Shown here piece by piece: positions 44,205 to 53,515 of a stretch of DNA of 64,000 nucleotides (its first letter is position 1; the number at the start of each line of letters is the position of its first letter). This DNA is from Maribacter sp. BPC-D8 (GTDB lineage Bacteria; Bacteroidota; Bacteroidia; Flavobacteriales; Flavobacteriaceae): the NCBI RefSeq assembly GCF_035207705.1, contig NZ_CP128187.1:310001-374000 (forward strand). The letters run 5' to 3'. Under the pieces are notes generated by a model. That model had not been told where the DNA came from and searched no databases. It worked only from the letters and a program-made list of their open reading frames with translations. The position numbers and the translations under genes are program-made.

Positions 44205-44786
44205 TTAACCGTGAATAGATTCTTTGGTGCCTAAATCTTTCATGATTTGAGCTTCATATTCCAGAAGACTGTCCCATTTTTTATTCACCTCTTCTAATTC
44301 CCCATATTTACGGGCAAATTTTAAGAACATAGTATAATGTCCGGCTTCACTAATCATTAATTTATGATAGAATTCGGCTAATTTTTTGTCTTCTAACTCT
44401 TCAGATAATAATCTAAATCGCTCACAACTGCGCGCTTCAATTAATCCTGCGTACAATAATCTATGAACCAACTGTGTAGTTCTGCTTCCTCCCTTTGGAA
44501 AGAATTTGATTAGTTGAATTACATAATCATCTTTACGATCTCGACCTAAAGTATTACCACGTTTTAATATAAGGTCATGCACCATTTTAAAATGACCCAT
44601 TTCTTCTCTAGATAGGGCAACCATTTCTTCAACAAGCTCTGTATATTCAGGGAAAGATACAATTAGCGATATGGCAGTACTCGCAGCTTTTTGCTCACAA
44701 TACGCATGATCAGTAAGTATTTCATCAATATTTTTCTCTACAATATTTACCCATCTTGGATCAGTAGGTAGTTTTAAGCCTAGCAT
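44205..44786 (-). CDS. miaE: tRNA-(ms2io6A)-hydroxylase
   Basis: Di-iron oxygenase that hydroxylates the isopentenyl group of ms2i6A37 in tRNA. The ferritin-like iron ligands are visible in YCEQKAAS, SREEMGHFKM, EARSCERF and EAGHYTMF. The length of 193 residues is normal. It is convergent with ppx (8 bp between stops) and divergent from the ebo cluster. Its promoter (minus CAAAATTA with CAA 21 bp further) is in the shared upstream region. Confidence 0.92.
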   Translation of the reverse strand: MLGLKLPTDPRWVNIVEKNIDEILTDHAYCEQKAASTAISLIVSFPEYTELVEEMVALSREEMGHFKMVHDLILKRGNTLGRDRKDDYVIQLIKFFPKGGSRTTQLVHRLLYAGLIEARSCERFRLLSEELEDKKLAEFYHKLMISEAGHYTMFLKFARKYGELEEVNKKWDSLLEYEAQIMKDLGTKESIHG

Positions 44787-44873: not shown

Positions 44874-44881
44874 TATTTTTG
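44874..44881 (+). promoter_or_regulatory. -7 box of the ebo operon promoter
   Basis: Exact TATTTTTG, 24 bp before the eboA ATG. Predicted start near 44886 and a ~20-nt leader. No exact TTG at the -33 position; CTTAC sits in that area. It is back-to-back with the miaE promoter. Confidence 0.58.
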
Positions 44882-44905: not shown

Positions 44906-45757
44906 ATGCACAATCAAAAAGACATTCAAAATATTTTAATCCAATTTGGAGCACCAGAAAGTGTAAGTTGGTTAGAAGGTAAAATAGAGAAGCTGGCTAG
45001 TGATAAGTCTTCAAAAGATTTATTCATGAGCTATAGCCTTCTAAATGTGAAATTTGATGCGGTAAAACCAATTTCATTTAAACAATTAGATACTGAAAGT
45101 ACTAGCTATTTCAGCGCACATAAAGCAAATATTCTACAAGTAGCGCGTATTTATTTGTTGTCGGAAGTTCTAGGGCATGATCAGGAATATTATACACCTA
45201 AAGTCGCAAACATTATACAAGTGGCTGATACTAGTGAGTTAGAAACTTTTCTAAAATACTTGATTTTATTGCCAAACCCAGAAGCTTATAAACAAACAGC
45301 GGTAGAAGCTTTAAGAACGAACATTGCTACGATTTTTGATGCAATTTCATTGAACAATCCATATCCGGCGAAATATTTCAATGATCAACAATGGAATCAG
45401 ATGTTTTTAAAAGCTGCATTTATGGAGCGAGATCTTTCGCAAATAGAATCTGTTGATGAAAGAGCAAATGCTGATTTAACTAGAATAATATCTGATTATG
45501 CACATGAAAGGTGGGCTGCAGGCAGAAAAATAGACCCATTATTTTGGAGACCCGTTTCGAAATTTTTGAATGAGGAACTATTGAATGATATGAAGACACT
45601 TCTTGATAGTGATGATGTATTAGAAAATAATTCAGGAGCCCTTTGTTGTTATCATTCAGAAAATGATAAGGCATTGGCACTTTTGAATAGTAAACCAGAG
45701 CTAAAACATAAAATAGCAGACCAACAGATAACTTGGAATACGATTAAACAACAATAG
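44906..45757 (+). CDS. eboA: EboA domain protein
   Basis: First gene of the ebo cluster, 283 residues, mainly alpha-helical, no signal peptide or transmembrane segment. It has no catalytic motif I can name; it is assigned by similarity to EboA proteins (N-terminal SVSWLEGKIEKLASDKSSKDLFMSYSLL, quoted in part) and by its six ordered partners. Position-conserved Trp/Arg residues (HERWAAGRKIDPLFWRPVSK) are typical. Its stop is 1 bp before eboB, so the operon is tight. Role in the pathway is not known. Confidence 0.85.
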   Translation: MHNQKDIQNILIQFGAPESVSWLEGKIEKLASDKSSKDLFMSYSLLNVKFDAVKPISFKQLDTESTSYFSAHKANILQVARIYLLSEVLGHDQEYYTPKVANIIQVADTSELETFLKYLILLPNPEAYKQTAVEALRTNIATIFDAISLNNPYPAKYFNDQQWNQMFLKAAFMERDLSQIESVDERANADLTRIISDYAHERWAAGRKIDPLFWRPVSKFLNEELLNDMKTLLDSDDVLENNSGALCCYHSENDKALALLNSKPELKHKIADQQITWNTIKQQ

Positions 45758-45758
45758 A

Positions 45759-46667
45759 ATGGAAGATAAAATGATGATTATTGACCCGCATGTTCACATG
45801 ACGTCAAGAACAACAGATGATTATGAAGCAATGGCGGCAGCGGGAGTTGTTGCGATAATAGAACCTTCATTTTGGTTGGGTCAACCTAGAACCCAAGTTG
45901 GTTCTTTTCAAGATTACTTTAGTAGTCTTGTTGGTTGGGAACCTTTTAGAGCTAGCCAATTTGGTATTAAGCATTATTGCACTATTGGCTTAAATTCTAA
46001 AGAGGCTAACAATGAGGCTTTAGCGGAACAAGTTATAGAATTGTTGCCTTTATACTTACATAAAGAGAATGTAGTTGCCATTGGTGAAATTGGTTATGAT
46101 GACCAAACACCTGCAGAAGATAAGTTTTTCAGAATGCAATTAGATATGGCAAAAGAATTGGACATGACGGTTCAAGTGCATACACCACATCGCGATAAGA
46201 AAGCCGGTACCATTAAGAGTATGGAAGTTTGTTTAGAACACGGTTTAGATCCTGCCAATGTCATTATTGACCATAATAACGAAGAAACGGTAAAAGAGGT
46301 TCTTGACCGCGGATTTATAGCTGCATTTACTATTTACCCAAAAACAAAGATGGGTAATGAACGTATGGTAGAAGTAGTGAAGAAATTTGGTAGTTCTAAT
46401 ATTATCGTAGATAGCTCTGCAGACTGGGGTGTAAGTGATCCATTGGCAGTGCCGAAAACGGCTTCTTTAATGTTGAAAAGAGGTATTTCTATAGAAGATG
46501 TTAGAAAAACCTGTTACCAAAATGCGTTAGATGCTTTTAGTAAAAACGGAAAAATGAAAGAAGCGCATTGGTTACAGCCAGATAGCATTAATCAATCGCA
46601 ACTATTTAATGATAATAGTGTTTTAAGAGGTCAGAAGCCAAGAATAGACGAAGACCAAATCACCTAA
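45759..46667 (+). CDS. eboB: TatD-family metal-dependent hydrolase EboB
   Basis: Amidohydrolase-superfamily TIM barrel of 302 residues, with the first metal site in DPHVHM (residues ~9-14). Later ligands are GEIGYDDQ (Glu), QVHTPHRDK (His), DHNN and DSSADWG (Asp). It belongs to the TatD branch by sequence, but the ebo version has an unknown substrate. It is spaced 1 bp from eboA and eboC on each side, consistent with one polycistronic mRNA. Confidence 0.88.
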   Translation: MEDKMMIIDPHVHMTSRTTDDYEAMAAAGVVAIIEPSFWLGQPRTQVGSFQDYFSSLVGWEPFRASQFGIKHYCTIGLNSKEANNEALAEQVIELLPLYLHKENVVAIGEIGYDDQTPAEDKFFRMQLDMAKELDMTVQVHTPHRDKKAGTIKSMEVCLEHGLDPANVIIDHNNEETVKEVLDRGFIAAFTIYPKTKMGNERMVEVVKKFGSSNIIVDSSADWGVSDPLAVPKTASLMLKRGISIEDVRKTCYQNALDAFSKNGKMKEAHWLQPDSINQSQLFNDNSVLRGQKPRIDEDQIT

Positions 46668-46668
46668 A

Positions 46669-47568
46669 ATGAAAGAAAAGTTAATGGGTTTTGCTCGTTT
46701 GGCAAGACCCGCAAATTTGCCAACTGCCGCAGCAGATATTTTGGCGGGTATTGCTATTGCATTATATCTGCGGAATATAGACGTGCTTGGCTTTTTAACA
46801 GAGCAAAGCGGTGATATATTTTTATTGGTCTTTTCTTCGGTTGCTTTATATGCCGGCGGAGTTGTTTTTAATGATGTATTCGATGCAGAATTAGATGCTA
46901 TTGAAAGACCGGAAAGAGCCATACCAAGCGGATTAGTGCCTAAGCGTGAGGCAATTTATTTCGGAACTATATTAATGTTGATAGGCGTTACCTTGGCATT
47001 CAAGTGTAATATGCTTGCAGGGATAATATCCGTAATCTTGACTATTGCTATTCTAACGTATGATGGGTATTTTAAGCAATTCGGTTTCGCCGGACCTTTG
47101 AACATGGGTGTTTGTCGAGGATTAAATTTGTTAATGGGAATGTCTATTTTGGGTATGCTCTCTCATTGGTACATTGCGTTAGTGCCTGTAGTTTACATTT
47201 TTGCGATAACTTTAATCAGTAGAGGCGAAGTACATGGTAATAACAAAAAACACATTGTCTGGGCTGGCATTTTATATGCAATAGTTATAGTAGCTATATC
47301 ATTAGTTGTTATCCAACAGAAAGACAATTCGTTAATTCTTTTACCGTTTTTAATTTTGTTCGCATATTTAATTTTTAAACCACTTTTGAAAGCCTACAAA
47401 GAGAATTCACCTGAGAATATAAAGAAGGCGGTAATGGGCGGTGTACTATCGCTTGTTGTGATGAACGCTTGCTGGGTAGCAGGTTTTTCTAACTGGTATT
47501 TGGCGCTAGCAGTTTTATTATTATTGCCAGTATCAATACTTTTGTCTAAACTATTTGCAGTAACATAA
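46669..47568 (+). CDS. eboC: UbiA-like prenyltransferase EboC
   Basis: Integral membrane protein of 299 residues with about nine helices. The first Asp-rich motif of UbiA prenyltransferases is clear (NDVFDAELDAIERPERAIPSG, quoted as NDVFD..D..ERPERAIPSG). The second motif region reads YDGYFK and appears degenerate against the usual DxxxD. The ebo version may prenylate or carry an unknown small molecule, so the substrate is open. It is the membrane component of the cluster besides the downstream TMEM220-like protein. Confidence 0.87.
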   Translation: MKEKLMGFARLARPANLPTAAADILAGIAIALYLRNIDVLGFLTEQSGDIFLLVFSSVALYAGGVVFNDVFDAELDAIERPERAIPSGLVPKREAIYFGTILMLIGVTLAFKCNMLAGIISVILTIAILTYDGYFKQFGFAGPLNMGVCRGLNLLMGMSILGMLSHWYIALVPVVYIFAITLISRGEVHGNNKKHIVWAGILYAIVIVAISLVVIQQKDNSLILLPFLILFAYLIFKPLLKAYKENSPENIKKAVMGGVLSLVVMNACWVAGFSNWYLALAVLLLLPVSILLSKLFAVT

Positions 47569-47575
47569 AATACTT

Positions 47576-48736
47576 ATGCAATTACAACCTATAAAACAGT
47601 CTTTTCAAGTGCAATATGATTATCAATTGTACTTTACTTCGGGACTATTTGCTTTAGAGAATCCGTTATTCGAAAAATTAATTGCGAACTATAAGAGCTT
47701 TGAACCTGTCAAACTTTTGTTTGTGTTGGATGACGGAGTTAAAAACCATCACCCTGGGTTAATAAATCAGATTGAAGCCTATTGTAAAAAAAATCAGCAA
47801 ACTATAAAGTATACGAATACTTTGGTATTGCCAGGTGGCGAGCAAGTTAAAAATAGCGATGCAGCTATTGATTCTGTTTTAAAAGGTGTCAATGAAAACA
47901 AAATTTGTCGTCATTCATTTGTAGTTGTCATTGGTGGTGGTGCAGTAATCGATATGGTCGGTTATGCAGCTGCAATTGCGCATAGAGGTGTTAAGTTGAT
48001 ACGAATACCTACTACAGTATTATCTCAGAACGATTCTGCAGTAGGGGTGAAGAACAGTGTTAATGCTTTTAAAAAGAAAAATTTTTTAGGAACATTCGCT
48101 CCGCCTTTCGCAATTATCAACGACAGTAATTTTCTAGAAACTTTAGAGCAACGCGATTGGATTTCTGGTATTTCTGAAGCCATTAAAGTTGCCTTGATTA
48201 AGGATAGGTCTTTCTTTAAGTATATAGCCGATAATGCTACGGCACTTAAGAATAGAGAAATGGAACCCATGCAATATGTAATTTATAAATGTGCAGAAAT
48301 GCATATGCATCATATTGCGCAAGGCGGTGACCCATTTGAGTCGGGATCATCAAGACCATTAGATTTCGGGCATTGGGCAGCCCATAAGATGGAGTTTATG
48401 ACCAATTATGAATTGCGACATGGCGAAGCGGTAGCAAAAGGTATTGCGCTAGATGTGACTTATGCTCAATTAACCGGTTTAATTTCACAGGGGGATTTAC
48501 AGCATATTTTAGACGTGATGATTGCTATCGGTTTTGATCTTTCTCTTCCGGTAGAAAGCGCTGTAGAGATTCAATCTTTGTTAGATGGTATAGAAGAGTT
48601 TAGAGAGCATTTAGGGGGTCAGTTGACAATTACCCTAATTTCTGATTTAGGTGTTAAGCATGACGTTCATACTATCGATATGGAGCTAATGGCGCAAGCA
48701 GTTTCAAAGTTGAATCATCAATTCGCATTAAATTAA
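47576..48736 (+). CDS. eboD: Sugar-phosphate cyclase EboD (3-dehydroquinate synthase superfamily)
   Basis: NAD-dependent cyclase of the AroB superfamily. The NAD motif is VVIGGGAVIDMVGYAAA near residue 120. Metal ligands are Glu in GISEAIKVALIKD, His in RPLDFGHWAAHKME and His in LRHGEAVAKGI. Differences from true AroB (VGVKNSVNAFKKKNFLG instead of the DHQ-synthase form) place it with sugar-phosphate cyclases of the EboD/EEVS side, which close heptulose phosphates. 386 residues. It is not the shikimate-pathway AroB of this organism. Confidence 0.83.
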   Translation: MQLQPIKQSFQVQYDYQLYFTSGLFALENPLFEKLIANYKSFEPVKLLFVLDDGVKNHHPGLINQIEAYCKKNQQTIKYTNTLVLPGGEQVKNSDAAIDSVLKGVNENKICRHSFVVVIGGGAVIDMVGYAAAIAHRGVKLIRIPTTVLSQNDSAVGVKNSVNAFKKKNFLGTFAPPFAIINDSNFLETLEQRDWISGISEAIKVALIKDRSFFKYIADNATALKNREMEPMQYVIYKCAEMHMHHIAQGGDPFESGSSRPLDFGHWAAHKMEFMTNYELRHGEAVAKGIALDVTYAQLTGLISQGDLQHILDVMIAIGFDLSLPVESAVEIQSLLDGIEEFREHLGGQLTITLISDLGVKHDVHTIDMELMAQAVSKLNHQFALN

Positions 48737-48741
48737 GTTCA

Positions 48742-49935
48742 ATGCAGCTAAAAGAAAATCTTCATTTAACCTATTGTACAAATATTCATCCAGGTCAAGA
48801 TTGGAAAAGTACTTTTGAGAGTATTAAGAAACACGTTCCAGAGATAAAACAAGAAGTTTCAAAAGAACAACCATTTGGTCTGGGATTGCGATTATCTAAT
48901 AAAGCAAGTGAAGAACTTGATTTGGGAGATAATATGTCTGATTTCAAGAAGTGGCTAGATTCCAACAATCTATATGTTTTCACCATGAACGGATTCCCTT
49001 ATGGAAATTTTCATGATGAACGTGTAAAAGATATGGTGCATGCTCCAGATTGGACTACCGATGATCGATTGAAATATACAAAACGATTATTTCGTCAATT
49101 ATCCGAATTAATTCCGGCGGAAATGAATGGGGGAATTTCTACATCACCGATTACTTATAAATACTGGCATAAAACAGAAAACGAAACAAAAAACGCATTT
49201 CAGGTAGGAGCTAAAAATATGCTAGAGGTTGCCAAACAATTGTTTGAAATTGAGCAAGCTACAGGAACCTATTTGCATTTAGATATAGAACCAGAGCCAG
49301 ACGGATTGCTAGAGAATAGCGATGAAGTATTATCTTTTTATTCTGACTACTTATTACCGTTAGGAGCATCATTTCTTAAACAGGAATTAGGATTAGATCA
49401 GAAGGAATCTGAAAAGTTGATTAAAAAATACATCACCATTTGTTATGACGTTTGCCATTTTTCATTGGCGTATGAAGAACCTACAGATACTTTTGCTAAG
49501 TTTAAAAAAGAAAATATACGAGTTGGTAAGATTCAGGTTAGTGCAGCATTAAAAATTCTTTTTGGTGGTGGAAATGATGAGGTTATTTGGGAACAATTGT
49601 CTCAATTCAATGAACCAACCTATTTGCATCAAGTAACTGAGAAAATCGATGGCAAAGTAATAACGTATAGCGATTTACCTCTGGTATTAGAAGGAGATAG
49701 AAAGCACACTGAACTTAGGGCACATTATCATGTACCTATTTTCTTGGAGAAATATGGCGAGTTGTTCTCAACACAAGACCATATTTTGAAAACGATGGAT
49801 TATATTAAATCGAATGCGGTGTCAGAACATTTAGAAATAGAAACCTATACTTGGGATGTTCTTCCTTCAGATTTAAAACAAGATTTATCAGTATCTATAA
49901 TTAGAGAAATAGAGTGGTTTAAATCACACATGTAA
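48742..49935 (+). CDS. eboE: Metabolite traffic protein EboE (xylose isomerase-like TIM barrel)
   Basis: 397-residue protein of the xylose isomerase-like TIM-barrel superfamily. Likely metal-binding acidic residues and His are seen in YLHLDIEPEPDG, ICYDVCHFSLAY, and the late GKIQVSAALKILFG with LEGDRKHTELRAHYHVP. The N-terminus LHLTYCTNIHPG is diagnostic of EboE. No signal peptide. In cyanobacteria EboE is needed with the rest of the cluster for normal scytonemin monomer traffic. Six bp after eboD and 1 bp before eboF. Confidence 0.87.
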   Translation: MQLKENLHLTYCTNIHPGQDWKSTFESIKKHVPEIKQEVSKEQPFGLGLRLSNKASEELDLGDNMSDFKKWLDSNNLYVFTMNGFPYGNFHDERVKDMVHAPDWTTDDRLKYTKRLFRQLSELIPAEMNGGISTSPITYKYWHKTENETKNAFQVGAKNMLEVAKQLFEIEQATGTYLHLDIEPEPDGLLENSDEVLSFYSDYLLPLGASFLKQELGLDQKESEKLIKKYITICYDVCHFSLAYEEPTDTFAKFKKENIRVGKIQVSAALKILFGGGNDEVIWEQLSQFNEPTYLHQVTEKIDGKVITYSDLPLVLEGDRKHTELRAHYHVPIFLEKYGELFSTQDHILKTMDYIKSNAVSEHLEIETYTWDVLPSDLKQDLSVSIIREIEWFKSHM

Positions 49936-49936
49936 T

Positions 49937-51310
49937 ATGAAAAAAACGGTAGTCATAAATGTAGTTGGGTTAACGAAGCGATTGATAGGTGAGCATACTC
50001 CGTTTATAAAATCATTTTTAGAAAAAGGTCAATCATCATACATAGAACCTGTTTTGCCAGGTGTTACTTGTGCTGTGCAATCTACCTATGTAACGGGTAA
50101 ATGGCCATCAGAGCATGGTATTGTTGGTAATGGCTGGTATTTTAAAGATGAATGCGAAGTCAAGTTCTGGCGACAATCAAATAAACTGGTAGAGCAACCA
50201 AAAATATGGGACGATTTAAAAGAGCAACACCCTAATTTTACTTGCGCCAATCATTTTTGGTGGTATAATATGTATTCTAATGTTGATTATAGCCTTACGC
50301 CAAGACCAAATTATTTAGCAGACGGCAGAAAAATTCCCGATGTATATTCTTATCCGGCTGAGTTGCGAGACGATATGCAAAAAGCATTAGGTACTTTTCC
50401 GTTATTTGAATTTTGGGGACCTAAAACAACTATCAATTCTTCTAAATGGATAGCTGATGCCGCTTTATTAACAGATAAAAAGCACAATCCAGATTTAACC
50501 TTTATTTACCTTCCGCATTTAGATTATAATTTACAACGGTACGGTCTTGATTTTAAAGTGATTTCAAAAGACCTGAACGAAATAGATGCTGTAGTGAAGC
50601 AATTGGTGCAACATTATGAAGCACTAGATGCTAGAGTGATTCTGCTTTCAGAATACGGAATTACAAATGTAAACAGACCAATTCATCTTAATCGTGTATT
50701 AAGAAAAGAGGGAATGTTGGCTATTCGTGAAGAACGAGGATTAGAGCTTTTAGATGCAGGAGCCAGTGTTGCGTTTGCTGTAGCTGATCATCAAATAGCA
50801 CATGTGTATTGTAAGAATTCTAAAGATATTGAACGTGTTGCCGAATTGATGAAGTCAATTGACGGTGTAGAGAAAGTTCTTTACGGAGAAGATTTAAAGA
50901 CCTATCATATAGATCATGAGCGTTGTGGTGATATTGTGGTGGTTGCAGATAAAGATTCTTGGTTTACGTATTACTTCTGGCTAGATGATGCAAAGGCACC
51001 AGACTATGCAAGAATGGTAGATATTCATAAAAAGCCAGGTTATGATCCAGTTGAAATGTTGACAGATCCAAAAGATAAATTGGTGATGGCAAAAGTAGTG
51101 GGTAAGCTACTTAAGAAAAAAATGGGCTTTAGAACGGTCATGAATATTATACCAATTGATGCTACTTTGATAAAAGGATCACACGGTCGGTTGACTGAAG
51201 ATGTTGAAGATTTTCCTGTCTTTATAAGTAATCATATAATGGGTGATAACGATCAGAAGATTAGTGCAATACAAGTACGTGGTCTTATTGAAGATCACTT
51301 ATTAAACTAA
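49937..51310 (+). CDS. eboF: Alkaline phosphatase-superfamily nucleotide pyrophosphatase/phosphodiesterase EboF
   Basis: 457-residue phosphodiesterase-like protein without a signal peptide. The nucleophile region is PGVTCAVQSTYVTGKWPSEHG near residues 38-58, quoted here in part as VTCAVQSTYVTGKWPSEHG. Metal-site Asp/His appear in LPHLDYNLQRYG and KGSHGRL. The canonical metal motif xDHG reads SEYGI at residues 238-242 (Glu239, Tyr240), a deviation discussed as a finding. Final gene of the classical ebo set; the small membrane gene follows 6 bp later. Confidence 0.85.
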   Translation: MKKTVVINVVGLTKRLIGEHTPFIKSFLEKGQSSYIEPVLPGVTCAVQSTYVTGKWPSEHGIVGNGWYFKDECEVKFWRQSNKLVEQPKIWDDLKEQHPNFTCANHFWWYNMYSNVDYSLTPRPNYLADGRKIPDVYSYPAELRDDMQKALGTFPLFEFWGPKTTINSSKWIADAALLTDKKHNPDLTFIYLPHLDYNLQRYGLDFKVISKDLNEIDAVVKQLVQHYEALDARVILLSEYGITNVNRPIHLNRVLRKEGMLAIREERGLELLDAGASVAFAVADHQIAHVYCKNSKDIERVAELMKSIDGVEKVLYGEDLKTYHIDHERCGDIVVVADKDSWFTYYFWLDDAKAPDYARMVDIHKKPGYDPVEMLTDPKDKLVMAKVVGKLLKKKMGFRTVMNIIPIDATLIKGSHGRLTEDVEDFPVFISNHIMGDNDQKISAIQVRGLIEDHLLN

Positions 51311-51316
51311 ATTTAA

Positions 51317-51664
51317 ATGAATCTATTATTTAAGATATTAGGATACGTTTTTGCAGTTTTATTTACTGTAGGTGCAGTCTTGCAATACAATGATCCAGAC
51401 TCGTTAAATTGGATTGTTATTTACGGTGTTGCGGCTTTAATATCGTTATTATTCGCATTAAATAAAATAGGGTTTATAGTACCGTTGATATTTGGAGTTC
51501 TTGCTTTTATTGGCTTTATATATCTATATCCGTCAGATTTTCAAGGATTCGATTTAAATGATGGAGATATAGTTACTGTAGAGTTAGGAAGGGAAGCCTT
51601 CGGTCTTTTAATAATTTCAATAGTACTGTTAGTATTTGCTTTTCGAAGTAAAAGAAGGTTATAA
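51317..51664 (+). CDS. TMEM220-type small membrane protein, last gene of the ebo operon
   Basis: Membrane protein of 115 residues with four hydrophobic helices. LQYNDPDSLNWIVIYG is the conserved motif of the transmembrane-220 family, whose function is unknown. It starts 6 bp after eboF and converges with dnaX, overlapping it by six bases (TTATAA). Co-transcription with ebo is near certain from spacing, but a functional link is inference. Confidence 0.8.
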   Translation: MNLLFKILGYVFAVLFTVGAVLQYNDPDSLNWIVIYGVAALISLLFALNKIGFIVPLIFGVLAFIGFIYLYPSDFQGFDLNDGDIVTVELGREAFGLLIISIVLLVFAFRSKRRL

Positions 51665-53515
51665 ATACAGGTCGAACTCTGTTCTTAATAAATCGATAAC
51701 CGGATTCTTCTCTCTCAGTTTTTCGTATTTCTCTTCAGGCGTAAAGGCAAATTTCGTTGCAGTAGTTTCATTTACGGTAATGGCTAAATGAACGAAATGG
51801 TTGTTCAGTTTAGCACGTAGATATTCCATTAATTCGAACTGCTCACGCTCAATTTCTTTCTTCATGGTTCCGTTAGGAAGCTCTAAATGAATAGCAAAGC
51901 CTTCTTTTAATTTCGGAATATCTGAATGAAGGTTAGAAGCTAATATCTTTTGACCTTTTTTATCTATAATTTCTATAAAATCTGCCCAGTGCTTTCGAAG
52001 ATCTTCTTCAGTGAAATTATCTTTCGGTAAGTTGTTTTCATCAACAACAACTTCAATTTTATTAAGCTCGTGTTGCTTTTTGGCATTTAAGCTAGAAATA
52101 GAAAGTCCGGAAACTCTTTTGGTAGGGCGATTAATAATCGGTTTTTTACCATCAGTAGCAGTTTCTGCTGTTGGTGCTTTACTAATTTCCTGTTGAGATT
52201 CCTTAGGTTTTTCTGGAGCTACTTGTGCTTCAGTAGCCGGTTTTGATACTGCTGGCGTTTCAGTAGTCGTATTCGGAGTAATTATTTTGTTACCAACTTC
52301 GACTTCAGATTTTGTAGCAGCTGGTTGATTTCCAGTTACTGGTTTTACCTCAGATTCTTTAGTGGGTGCTTTGGGTACTTGATTGTAAAATGCTGAAGGA
52401 GCAATAAAATCGATAGTCTTGTTATTAAGAGCTACGGATTCAGGATTTTTTTTTTCTCCATCAAAATTGATAGAGGCAAGTTTCATAAGTGTAAGCTCAA
52501 CGAGTAAGCGTTGATTCTTACTTGTTTTGTACTTTAAATCACAGTCATTTGAAATATCTAAACCCTTAAGCAGAAAGGAGGGAGACGTTTTTTTGCTCTG
52601 GTCTCTGTATAGTTGCTGTGCGGCTTCACCAACCTCTAATAACGTAATAGTATCTGGGTGTTGGCATACCATTAAATCTCTAAAATGAGACGCTAGTCCA
52701 GATATAAAGTGGTGTCCGTCAAACCCAAGTGATAGGGTTTTATTGAACAACAAGAGTAATCCTGGTATATTATGTTCTAATATTAAATCTGTAGCCTCAA
52801 AATAAGTATCATAGTCTAAGACATTTAAATTTTCGGTAACTGCTTTACGTGTAAGCTCTGAACCAGAAAAACTAACTACTCTATCAAAAATCGATAAAGC
52901 ATCACGCATGGCTCCATCAGCTTTTTGGGCAATGATGTGCAATGCATCTTCTTCAGCATTTATACCTTGGTTTTCAGCAATATACTTTAAATATTCAGCA
53001 GCATCTTTTACGGTAATCCTTTTGAAATCAAAAATTTGACATCTAGAAAGAATCGTTGGTATAATCTTATGCTTTTCAGTAGTCGCTAATATGAAAATTG
53101 CATGCTTTGGTGGCTCTTCTAACGTTTTTAGAAATGCGTTGAAAGCAGACTGAGACAACATATGTACCTCATCAATAATATATACTTTGTATTTACCTAC
53201 CTGTGGTGGTATACGTACTTGATCAATTAGATTACGAATATCATCGACCGAGTTGTTAGAAGCGGCATCAAGCTCAAAAATATTGAAAGCAAAATCTTCA
53301 TCTTCTTGTTCTGTGCCATCAGAATTTATCTGTTTGGCCAAAATACGGGCGCAGGTAGTTTTACCAACACCTCTTGGTCCGCAGAATAATAACGCTTGCG
53401 CAAGGTGATTTTGGTCTATTGCATTTTGTAATGTATTGGTAATAGATTGTTGACCCACAACATCCTTAAATGTCTGGGGTCTATACTTTCTAGCCGATAC
53501 AATAAATGGTTCCAA
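51659..53515 (-). CDS. dnaX: DNA polymerase III subunit gamma/tau
   Basis: Clamp-loader ATPase, 618 residues. Walker A is GPRGVGKTTCARILAKQ and the Walker B/sensor is IIDEVHMLSQSAF. The zinc-finger four-Cys insert usual in gamma/tau is missing; this is, as I recall, normal for Flavobacteriia. A low-complexity Pro/Thr/Lys-rich linker (residues ~370-480) precedes the C-terminal tau-like part. I saw no clear slippage site that would make gamma. Minus-strand TATATTTG (-7 box) is 25 bp upstream. Confidence 0.95.
   Translation of the reverse strand: MEPFIVSARKYRPQTFKDVVGQQSITNTLQNAIDQNHLAQALLFCGPRGVGKTTCARILAKQINSDGTEQEDEDFAFNIFELDAASNNSVDDIRNLIDQVRIPPQVGKYKVYIIDEVHMLSQSAFNAFLKTLEEPPKHAIFILATTEKHKIIPTILSRCQIFDFKRITVKDAAEYLKYIAENQGINAEEDALHIIAQKADGAMRDALSIFDRVVSFSGSELTRKAVTENLNVLDYDTYFEATDLILEHNIPGLLLLFNKTLSLGFDGHHFISGLASHFRDLMVCQHPDTITLLEVGEAAQQLYRDQSKKTSPSFLLKGLDISNDCDLKYKTSKNQRLLVELTLMKLASINFDGEKKNPESVALNNKTIDFIAPSAFYNQVPKAPTKESEVKPVTGNQPAATKSEVEVGNKIITPNTTTETPAVSKPATEAQVAPEKPKESQQEISKAPTAETATDGKKPIINRPTKRVSGLSISSLNAKKQHELNKIEVVVDENNLPKDNFTEEDLRKHWADFIEIIDKKGQKILASNLHSDIPKLKEGFAIHLELPNGTMKKEIEREQFELMEYLRAKLNNHFVHLAITVNETTATKFAFTPEEKYEKLREKNPVIDLLRTEFDLYL

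Follow-up and report, generated by a model that had tools for sequence, protein, structure and literature searches.

The window analysed here, a stretch of 64,000 nucleotides from the genome of the marine bacterium Maribacter sp. BPC-D8, contains the intact ebo genes A to F (44906-51310), followed by a gene of the TMEM220 family, hereafter T (51317-51664). All seven genes lie on the + strand, and the gaps between them, taken from the listing of open reading frames, are 1, 1, 7, 5, 1 and 6 bp. EboA (44906..45757, 283 aa) is a predicted all-helical solenoid, which exceeds the cut-off of the domain model NF035938 (154 bits against 50) and falls under that of the narrower EboA_family model NF035937 (172 bits against 320). 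EboB (45759..46667, 302 aa) is a TatD-like metallo-hydrolase, in which the 116 positions with an identity of at least 97% across 72 relatives are all unaltered; it passes the broader Pfam model PF01026 (TatD_DNase; 67.3 bits, cut-off 27), and its assignment as a TatD DNase proper was rejected (TIGR00010, 43.7 bits against 206). EboC (46669..47568, 299 aa) is a UbiA-like membrane prenyltransferase (equivalog NF035940, 370 bits, cut-off 250) that retains N68, D69, D72 and D76.

The product of eboD (47576..48736, 386 aa) is a sugar-phosphate cyclase of the dehydroquinate-synthase superfamily (PF01761, 119.5 bits; PRK06203, 555 bits, cut-off 333). It was rejected as a 3-dehydroquinate synthase AroB, since the equivalog TIGR01357 gave 227 bits against a cut-off of 305. 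When aligned to the solved structure 3okf of that enzyme, D263 of the window protein stands opposite N, and a KK pair near the C-end opposite R and E, at positions which we take to be substrate residues. EboE (48742..49935, 397 aa) is a TIM-barrel protein (equivalog NF035939, 482 bits, cut-off 250). EboF (49937..51310, 457 aa) belongs to the type I phosphodiesterase/pyrophosphatase superfamily (PF01663, Phosphodiest, 215 bits, cut-off 23) and was rejected as a PhnA phosphonoacetate hydrolase (TIGR02335, 43.1 bits against 407.55). T encodes 115 aa with four predicted transmembrane helices and is a member of TMEM220 by profile (PF15071, 69.9 bits, cut-off 27). The cluster is flanked upstream by a MiaE-family gene (44205..44786, - strand, divergent from eboA; PF06175, 141 bits) and downstream by a gene on the - strand (51659..53515 in the open reading frame listing), presumably dnaX as judged from its sequence, which is convergent with T and shares 6 bp with it (51659-51664). 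The open reading frames and family profiles thus bear out the original prediction of a complete eboABCDEF cluster in canonical order with gaps of 1-7 bp, an order also found on one strand in many of the mapped Bacteroidota loci.

The genes A to F and T look intact and under purifying selection, as judged by comparison with their relatives. Across positions at least 97% identical among these (n=71, 72, 72, 73, 79, 74 and 29 for A-F and T, respectively), the only departure is A to G at position 42 of EboF. Moreover, pairwise dN/dS against two Maribacter MAG loci was 0.013-0.089 over nine gene pairs (0.077 for T), a set that leaves aside EboE of one locus, L252, because of an ambiguous base. The original prediction had the operon start from a “-7 box”, and TATTTTTG is present at 44874; however, the window holds 81 copies of TANNTTTG where chance alone would give 92, and the box therefore provides no evidence of a promoter. 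Between 44500 and 52000 both promoter-like sites (30 against 29.8 expected) and terminator-like sites (5 against 4.0) were at chance level. A single transcript covering the cluster and T is plausible from the short gaps.

The ebo cluster is by itself ordinary and already published; the new element of the locus is T, as a recurrent companion of ebo in Bacteroidota. Away from the chromosomal site occupied in the window, no other non-ebo gene turns up near ebo as often as T, which is present at about 25 of 102 loci (27 of 104 when every locus lacking a MiaE gene is counted, before two truncated copies of the site were removed); the runner-up was found at 7 of 104. In the fetched loci, among which a few genomes were entered twice, T directly adjoins ebo, no other gene intervening, in one of five positions or orientations: downstream of eboF on the same strand (36 cases) or convergent (2), upstream of eboA on the same strand (15) or divergent from it (7), and before eboE (1). 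The gap was -38 to 26 bp in 43 of the 52 same-strand cases, which suggests shared transcription. Such adjacency is not confined to this genus, a restriction that would have counted against the original prediction, and was seen in several orientations in loci of Maribacter-like genera, Salegentibacter, Mucilaginibacter, Daejeonella, Chitinophaga, Hymenobacter and Cyclobacteriaceae.

Many genomes with EboE carry T far from ebo, and adjacency alone misses a T that is unlinked but present. In the scan of 80 loci, T was found adjacent or elsewhere in 71 of the 78 EboE genomes searched, and was absent from both cyanobacteria and from five non-cyanobacterial genomes. A literal tie of T to eboF, as the original prediction had it, does not hold: where the fetched ebo locus shows no T, the gene lies elsewhere in 43 of the 50 genomes searched (in one, G618, on a contig beside eboA), but it is still part of those genomes. 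In a draw of 199 genomes of the family, T was present in 29 of 31 EboE genomes and 14 of 168 others (Fisher 5e-22, with genomes treated as independent), and in a draw of 395 genomes of the phylum in 24 of 31 (with no T match in the remaining 7) and 26 of 364, respectively (Fisher 1e-18, on the same footing). By a hand count in Chitinophaga, T was present in 60/60 genomes, and in 57 it lay on the same contig as EboE and at most 26 kb from it. The co-occurrence in one family (T in 202/202 EboE genomes and 16/18 ebo-less genomes) is little informative (p 0.006), because T is nearly fixed there (218/220). Finally, the cyanobacterial phylum seems to lack T (0/194 genomes), in a search that was flagged for giving no match at all, although its profile did give matches in other searches. 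The proposal that T is a seventh member of the cluster consequently stands in part: co-occurrence and repeated adjacency make it an accessory of ebo in Bacteroidota, but T without EboE (in all three samples above) and its apparent absence from the cyanobacterial genomes speak against a core or exclusive member.

The arrangement miaE-ebo-T-dnaX seen in the window is one ancestral chromosomal site, and its many copies are therefore not independent. A MiaE relative occurs at 25 of the 31 ebo loci of the family draw, and a dnaX-like relative within three genes of T at 28 T loci. It could be that T is a resident of this site, irrelevant to ebo, and that ebo landed in front of it. T lies right after eboF in 22 of the 31 EboE genomes of the family draw, with the MiaE-family flank in all 22; it is kept at the site without EboE in four genomes (G184, G126, G037 and G032), and likewise in G018, L368 and L369, whose ebo lies elsewhere. 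Furthermore, T sequences from this site, whether or not ebo accompanies them, form one group in the T tree. We nevertheless consider such a coincidence improbable, given that T also lies next to ebo at different sites and in different layouts (upstream of eboA or divergent from it, convergent, or before eboE) and that it co-occurs with ebo even where the two are unlinked. Three adjacent cases among the 20 genomes with EboE and T outside the family of the window (phylum draw) would have a probability of about 2e-7 under random placement (2 in 3500). When the loci of the miaE-dnaX site were removed from the family draw, the association persisted, in few genomes (T in 5/6 against at most 10/168, p 1e-5), and one of these five, G018, has T itself at that site. 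Were T unrelated to ebo after all, the site would be a clear case of shared ancestry mimicking operon membership.

It is also conceivable, though in our view unlikely, that the same lifestyle (e.g. extracytoplasmic sugar oxidation) keeps both T and ebo, which would cluster without acting jointly. Genes of the Gfo/Idh/MocA, xylose-isomerase-like TIM, 3-keto-disaccharide hydrolase, ThuA/sorbosone-dehydrogenase and GMC types do occur beside some linked and unlinked T, and only the TIM type (2) appeared in 20 control stretches, all taken from the family of the window. However, in a same-region control the counts within 2 genes did not differ significantly from those at a distance of at least 5, either for ebo (37/425 against 22/306, p 0.49) or for T (32/247 against 5/67, p 0.29), and the tight same-strand spacing described above also argues against mere clustering. 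We favour, with a probability of roughly 0.6, the reading that the locus is an intact ebo cluster of the ABCDEF type with a clade-specific accessory T, which works with ebo but not exclusively so.

T is predicted to span the inner membrane with four helices and to direct its invariant polar residues toward the periplasm. Its structure model (pLDDT 91.8, pTM 0.84) places these residues at the end of TM1 and the starts of TM2 and TM4, and a fold comparison of the model returned no match that accounts for T. The topology follows from the charge rule applied to 30 sequences: the side with the N-terminus, loop 2-3 and the C-terminus holds more K+R in 22 proteins (the reverse in 8), and its D+E mean is 0.4 against 4.8. 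N25 and D26 are kept in 65/65 linked T, 55/55 unlinked T of ebo genomes and 36/37 T of ebo-less genomes, D28 in 65/65, 53/55 and 35/37, and E89, R92 and E93 in 64/65, 55/55 and 37/37, respectively. Given that T proteins from ebo-less genomes hardly ever differ at these residues, the family probably performs a single activity, which ebo draws on, and not a role confined to ebo.

The available part of the literature contains several related systems. The ebo operon of eustigmatophyte plastids and Bacteroidetes likewise has six genes, in the order ABCDEF described as ancestral in Bacteroidetes (Yurchenko 2016, PMC5133447), and TMEM220, present in the window besides, is unmentioned in the main text of that report. 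The ebo genes of Nostoc punctiforme are homologous to those of the window, with eboD outside the cluster proper whereas it lies inside here; their deletion mutants retain the scytonemin monomer in the cytoplasm, and ebo was reported to be needed for metabolite transfer to the periplasm (Klicki 2018, PMC6282210). The main text of this report does not mention TMEM220 either. Prenyltransferases of the same EboC family (UbiA-297/EboC, 299 aa) from the marine Flavobacteria Maribacter sp. MS6, Zobellia and Algoriphagus, with genes reported in an ebo neighbourhood, were the sole proteins assayed in PMC9235831, whose main text is also silent on TMEM220. The titles and abstracts on TMEM220 among the matches listed concern human or animal studies, with no bacterial function.

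From the protein families and this literature, EboD would convert a sugar phosphate to a cyclic polyol, EboB, EboE and EboF might process this polyol or a phosphorylated partner, EboC, itself in the inner membrane, would attach a prenyl chain there, and EboA may act as a scaffold or binding subunit built of helices; the resulting product, bound to the membrane, might serve transfer to the periplasm, or chemistry in that compartment. T, with N25, D26, D28, W32, Y36, E89, R92 and E93 at the periplasmic face of the inner membrane, may bind, modify or release the ebo lipid or its cargo. The transport part originally suggested is possible. A bolder and rather doubtful proposal is that TMEM220 proteins are periplasm-facing lipid handlers, which provide the missing membrane step of ebo in Bacteroidota by taking over, flipping, cleaving or unloading the prenyl lipid made by EboC. 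Under this proposal ebo would serve extracytoplasmic chemistry in general as a lipid-carrier or cofactor system, and the animal proteins that are also named TMEM220 should act on a similar lipid. The ebo cluster is widespread, and the step of cargo export in cyanobacteria is, in the literature available, only hypothesised. For a membrane step, a small membrane-protein gene that recurs with ebo throughout a phylum offers a concrete candidate, deletable in laboratory-tractable strains, and its link to ebo would offer TMEM220, a poorly understood family, a first biochemical context and a likely pathway.

A prenylated (isoprenoid) cyclitol as the ebo product, which the original prediction also put forward, is a published proposal, according to the available part of PMC5133447. 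It is just one candidate, since EboC orthologues farnesylate quinolines in vitro: in the portion of PMC9235831 available, those of Maribacter MS6, Zobellia and Algoriphagus farnesylated 8-hydroxyquinoline-2-carboxylic acid in membrane preparations, and that of Maribacter MS6 did so in E. coli culture as well. The product might accordingly be a farnesylated aromatic compound of the quinoline type and not a cyclitol lipid, with EboD merely supplying a ring precursor, which we regard as unlikely. That study reports 14 acceptors, all of them aromatic, and EboD, being under the AroB cut-off, is no true AroB. In addition, an inositol-3-phosphate synthase is annotated in all three Streptomyces ebo-like loci examined and a dehydroquinate-synthase-like gene in none of them, a pattern that favours a cyclitol.

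The genome of Maribacter sp. BPC-D8 is a single contig of 4.78 Mb (the window covers bases 310001-374000), in which profile searches returned one EboE and one TMEM220 match. At 44906-51664 of the window, the ORF map shows seven genes transcribed in one direction and 1-7 bp apart. Specific ebo profile models identified EboA, EboC and EboE; EboB, EboD and EboF were assigned by superfamily profiles, and the seventh gene (51317-51664, forward strand; hereafter T) belongs to the TMEM220 family (PF15071, 69.9 bits, cut-off 27). The gene map and profiles bear out the original prediction of a complete eboABCDEF cluster (44906-51310) with an adjoining TMEM220 gene. Among positions with 97% or higher identity in relatives, the window genes differ at one, and dN/dS values against loci of Maribacter MAGs were 0.013-0.089 (nine gene pairs). 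Judged from its sequence, the cluster is no relic. Conservation is very strong in EboB (45759-46667): 116 of its 302 residues show at least 97% identity across 72 relatives.

The ebo part of the locus is ordinary: the six-gene cluster, its gene order and the hypothesis of an isoprenoid-linked cyclitol have been published (PMC5133447). In Nostoc, deletion of each of five ebo genes abolishes scytonemin production and the scytonemin monomer remains cytoplasmic (PMC6282210), and in assays on membrane preparations EboC of Maribacter, Zobellia and Algoriphagus attached a farnesyl group to a quinoline acid (PMC9235831). TMEM220 is absent from the main text of all three papers. Searches of an open-licence literature library yielded no match for TMEM220 with Bacteroidetes and no link between T and ebo, and among the matches listed for TMEM220, PF15071 and bacteria, all were human or animal studies by title and abstract. 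The novelty lies in the association of T with ebo.

Among 199 genomes (198 genera) of the family, EboE was found in 31, T in 43 (42 above cut-off) and both in 29; the respective counts for 395 Bacteroidota genomes were 31, 50 (49 above cut-off) and 24. A scan of 80 named EboE loci showed T adjoining ebo in 28. T was present in 43 of the 50 searched among the other 52 genomes, and both cyanobacteria were among the seven without it. All 60 Chitinophaga genomes carry EboE and T, which share a contig and lie at most 26 kb apart in 57. In the family of a Dyadobacter MAG (G612), with EboE in 202 and T in 218 of 220 genomes, T occurs in every EboE genome and also in 16 of the 18 lacking EboE. T was found in 0 of 194 genomes of the cyanobacterial phylum, where ebo is known for the two that led to the search, and a profile scan did not find it near ebo in ten plasmid loci, nine of them outside Bacteroidota.

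Within the 31 EboE genomes of the family, T lies directly 3' of eboF in 22, directly 5' of eboA in four, farther downstream with two intervening genes in one, elsewhere in two, and is missing from two. Across all the loci compared, the layouts vary (after eboF on the same strand or convergent, before eboA on the same strand or divergent, or before eboE), and T proteins of differing layouts scatter over several parts of a poorly resolved tree. In Chitinophaga, T directly adjoins ebo in some genomes; in others, a TonB-dependent receptor gene and further genes intervene. In locus L363 they encode the receptor (1078 aa), a protein of 592 aa and one with FG-GAP repeats; L365 and L366 have genes of similar size there, and in L365 two genes separate eboC and eboD. 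In Salegentibacter (L260:433-5918), two different TMEM220 paralogues flank 3-keto-disaccharide hydrolase and cytochrome c domain genes, directly followed by eboA-F.

All 22 loci of the family with T directly downstream of eboF have a MiaE-family gene upstream and usually dnaX downstream (the exceptions being a contig end in G103, and another gene plus broken pieces in G135). Four genomes without EboE (G184, G126, G037, G032) retain T at this site, 63-118 bp from miaE, and in three further cases (G018, L368, L369) T is at the site and ebo elsewhere in the genome. The copies at this site are most sensibly counted as a single ancestral event, so T-ebo adjacency in this genome is by itself weak evidence. 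With the site excluded, T was still present in 5 of 6 EboE genomes of the family versus at most 10 of 168 others. It is also the commonest gene within two genes of ebo, in about 25 of 102 non-site loci (the scripted 27/104 minus L244 and L252, truncated contigs carrying the dnaX flank); the next families reach 7 of 104. Chance hardly accounts for T and ebo being joined repeatedly in differing layouts, but shared ecology or a third partner could still drive it. The proposal of a seventh member holds in a weaker version: T is a Bacteroidota companion of ebo and not one of its core genes, on co-occurrence and repeated adjacency in differing layouts and not on the window's site alone. Given that cyanobacteria seem to manage without it and that some genomes have T but no ebo, T is best seen as an accessory whose role extends beyond ebo. 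At the miaE-dnaX site of one locus (L144, genome G021), eboE was the only ebo gene recognised and T was not there; this eboE is a lone remnant whose reading frame is open.

Beyond the genes, intactness and association observed here, a mechanism can be proposed. In one cyanobacterium ebo works in the outward movement of a compound (PMC6282210), and EboC is a membrane prenyltransferase (PMC9235831). EboD would make a cyclitol-type ring; in favour of this are its score under the AroB cut-off and the gene content of Streptomyces loci. All three Streptomyces plasmid loci examined (L237, L407, L408) have annotated EboA, TatD, EboE, phosphodiesterase, prenyltransferase and inositol-3-phosphate synthase genes and no annotated dehydroquinate-synthase-like gene; our scan, which also missed some annotated ebo genes in these loci, did not find eboD there. 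We take the two cyclases to be unrelated enzymes. A non-homologous swap of the cyclase is possible, and if unrelated cyclases fill one role, a cyclitol would seem to be what matters. The prenyltransferase is of the SCO3242 type (SCO3242/SCO3243 are reportedly named in a Streptomyces transcriptome paper, PMC3610822), and an extra sugar phosphate isomerase is present.

Less surely than the EboD step, T may act at the periplasmic face, handling either the prenylated product or the cargo. Ten residues (F16, N25, D26, D28, W32, Y36, E89, R92, E93, G96) are invariant in 30 aligned T proteins, with few exceptions across 157, whether or not ebo is present. The structural model (pLDDT 91.8, pTM 0.84) has helices at 3-25, 29-47, 54-70 and 85-112, with most invariant polar residues at the end of helix 1 and the starts of helices 2 and 4; the predicted four-helix hairpin would place them on one membrane face. 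Basic residues are commoner on the opposite face in 22 of 30 proteins, and the polar face is therefore probably periplasmic. It looks like a binding or catalytic site and not a pure scaffold; a fold search with the model found no functional relative.

Other neighbours were also recorded. A large ThuA-type gene, tied with two other families among the next commonest neighbours, occurs in 7 of 104 non-site ebo loci from several genera (L115, L151, L263, L274, L279, L302, L317). Gfo/Idh/MocA, xylose-isomerase-like TIM, 3-keto-disaccharide hydrolase or GMC/gluconate-dehydrogenase genes lie near T in L115, L118, L188, L202 and L215, with ebo present or absent; their enrichment did not hold up when compared with more distant genes in the same loci. 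Plasmids of Aureibacter (L232) and Mycetohabitans (L410), which belong to two different phyla, both carry a ferritin-like gene and a hypothetical gene of about 590-675 aa directly 5' of ebo.
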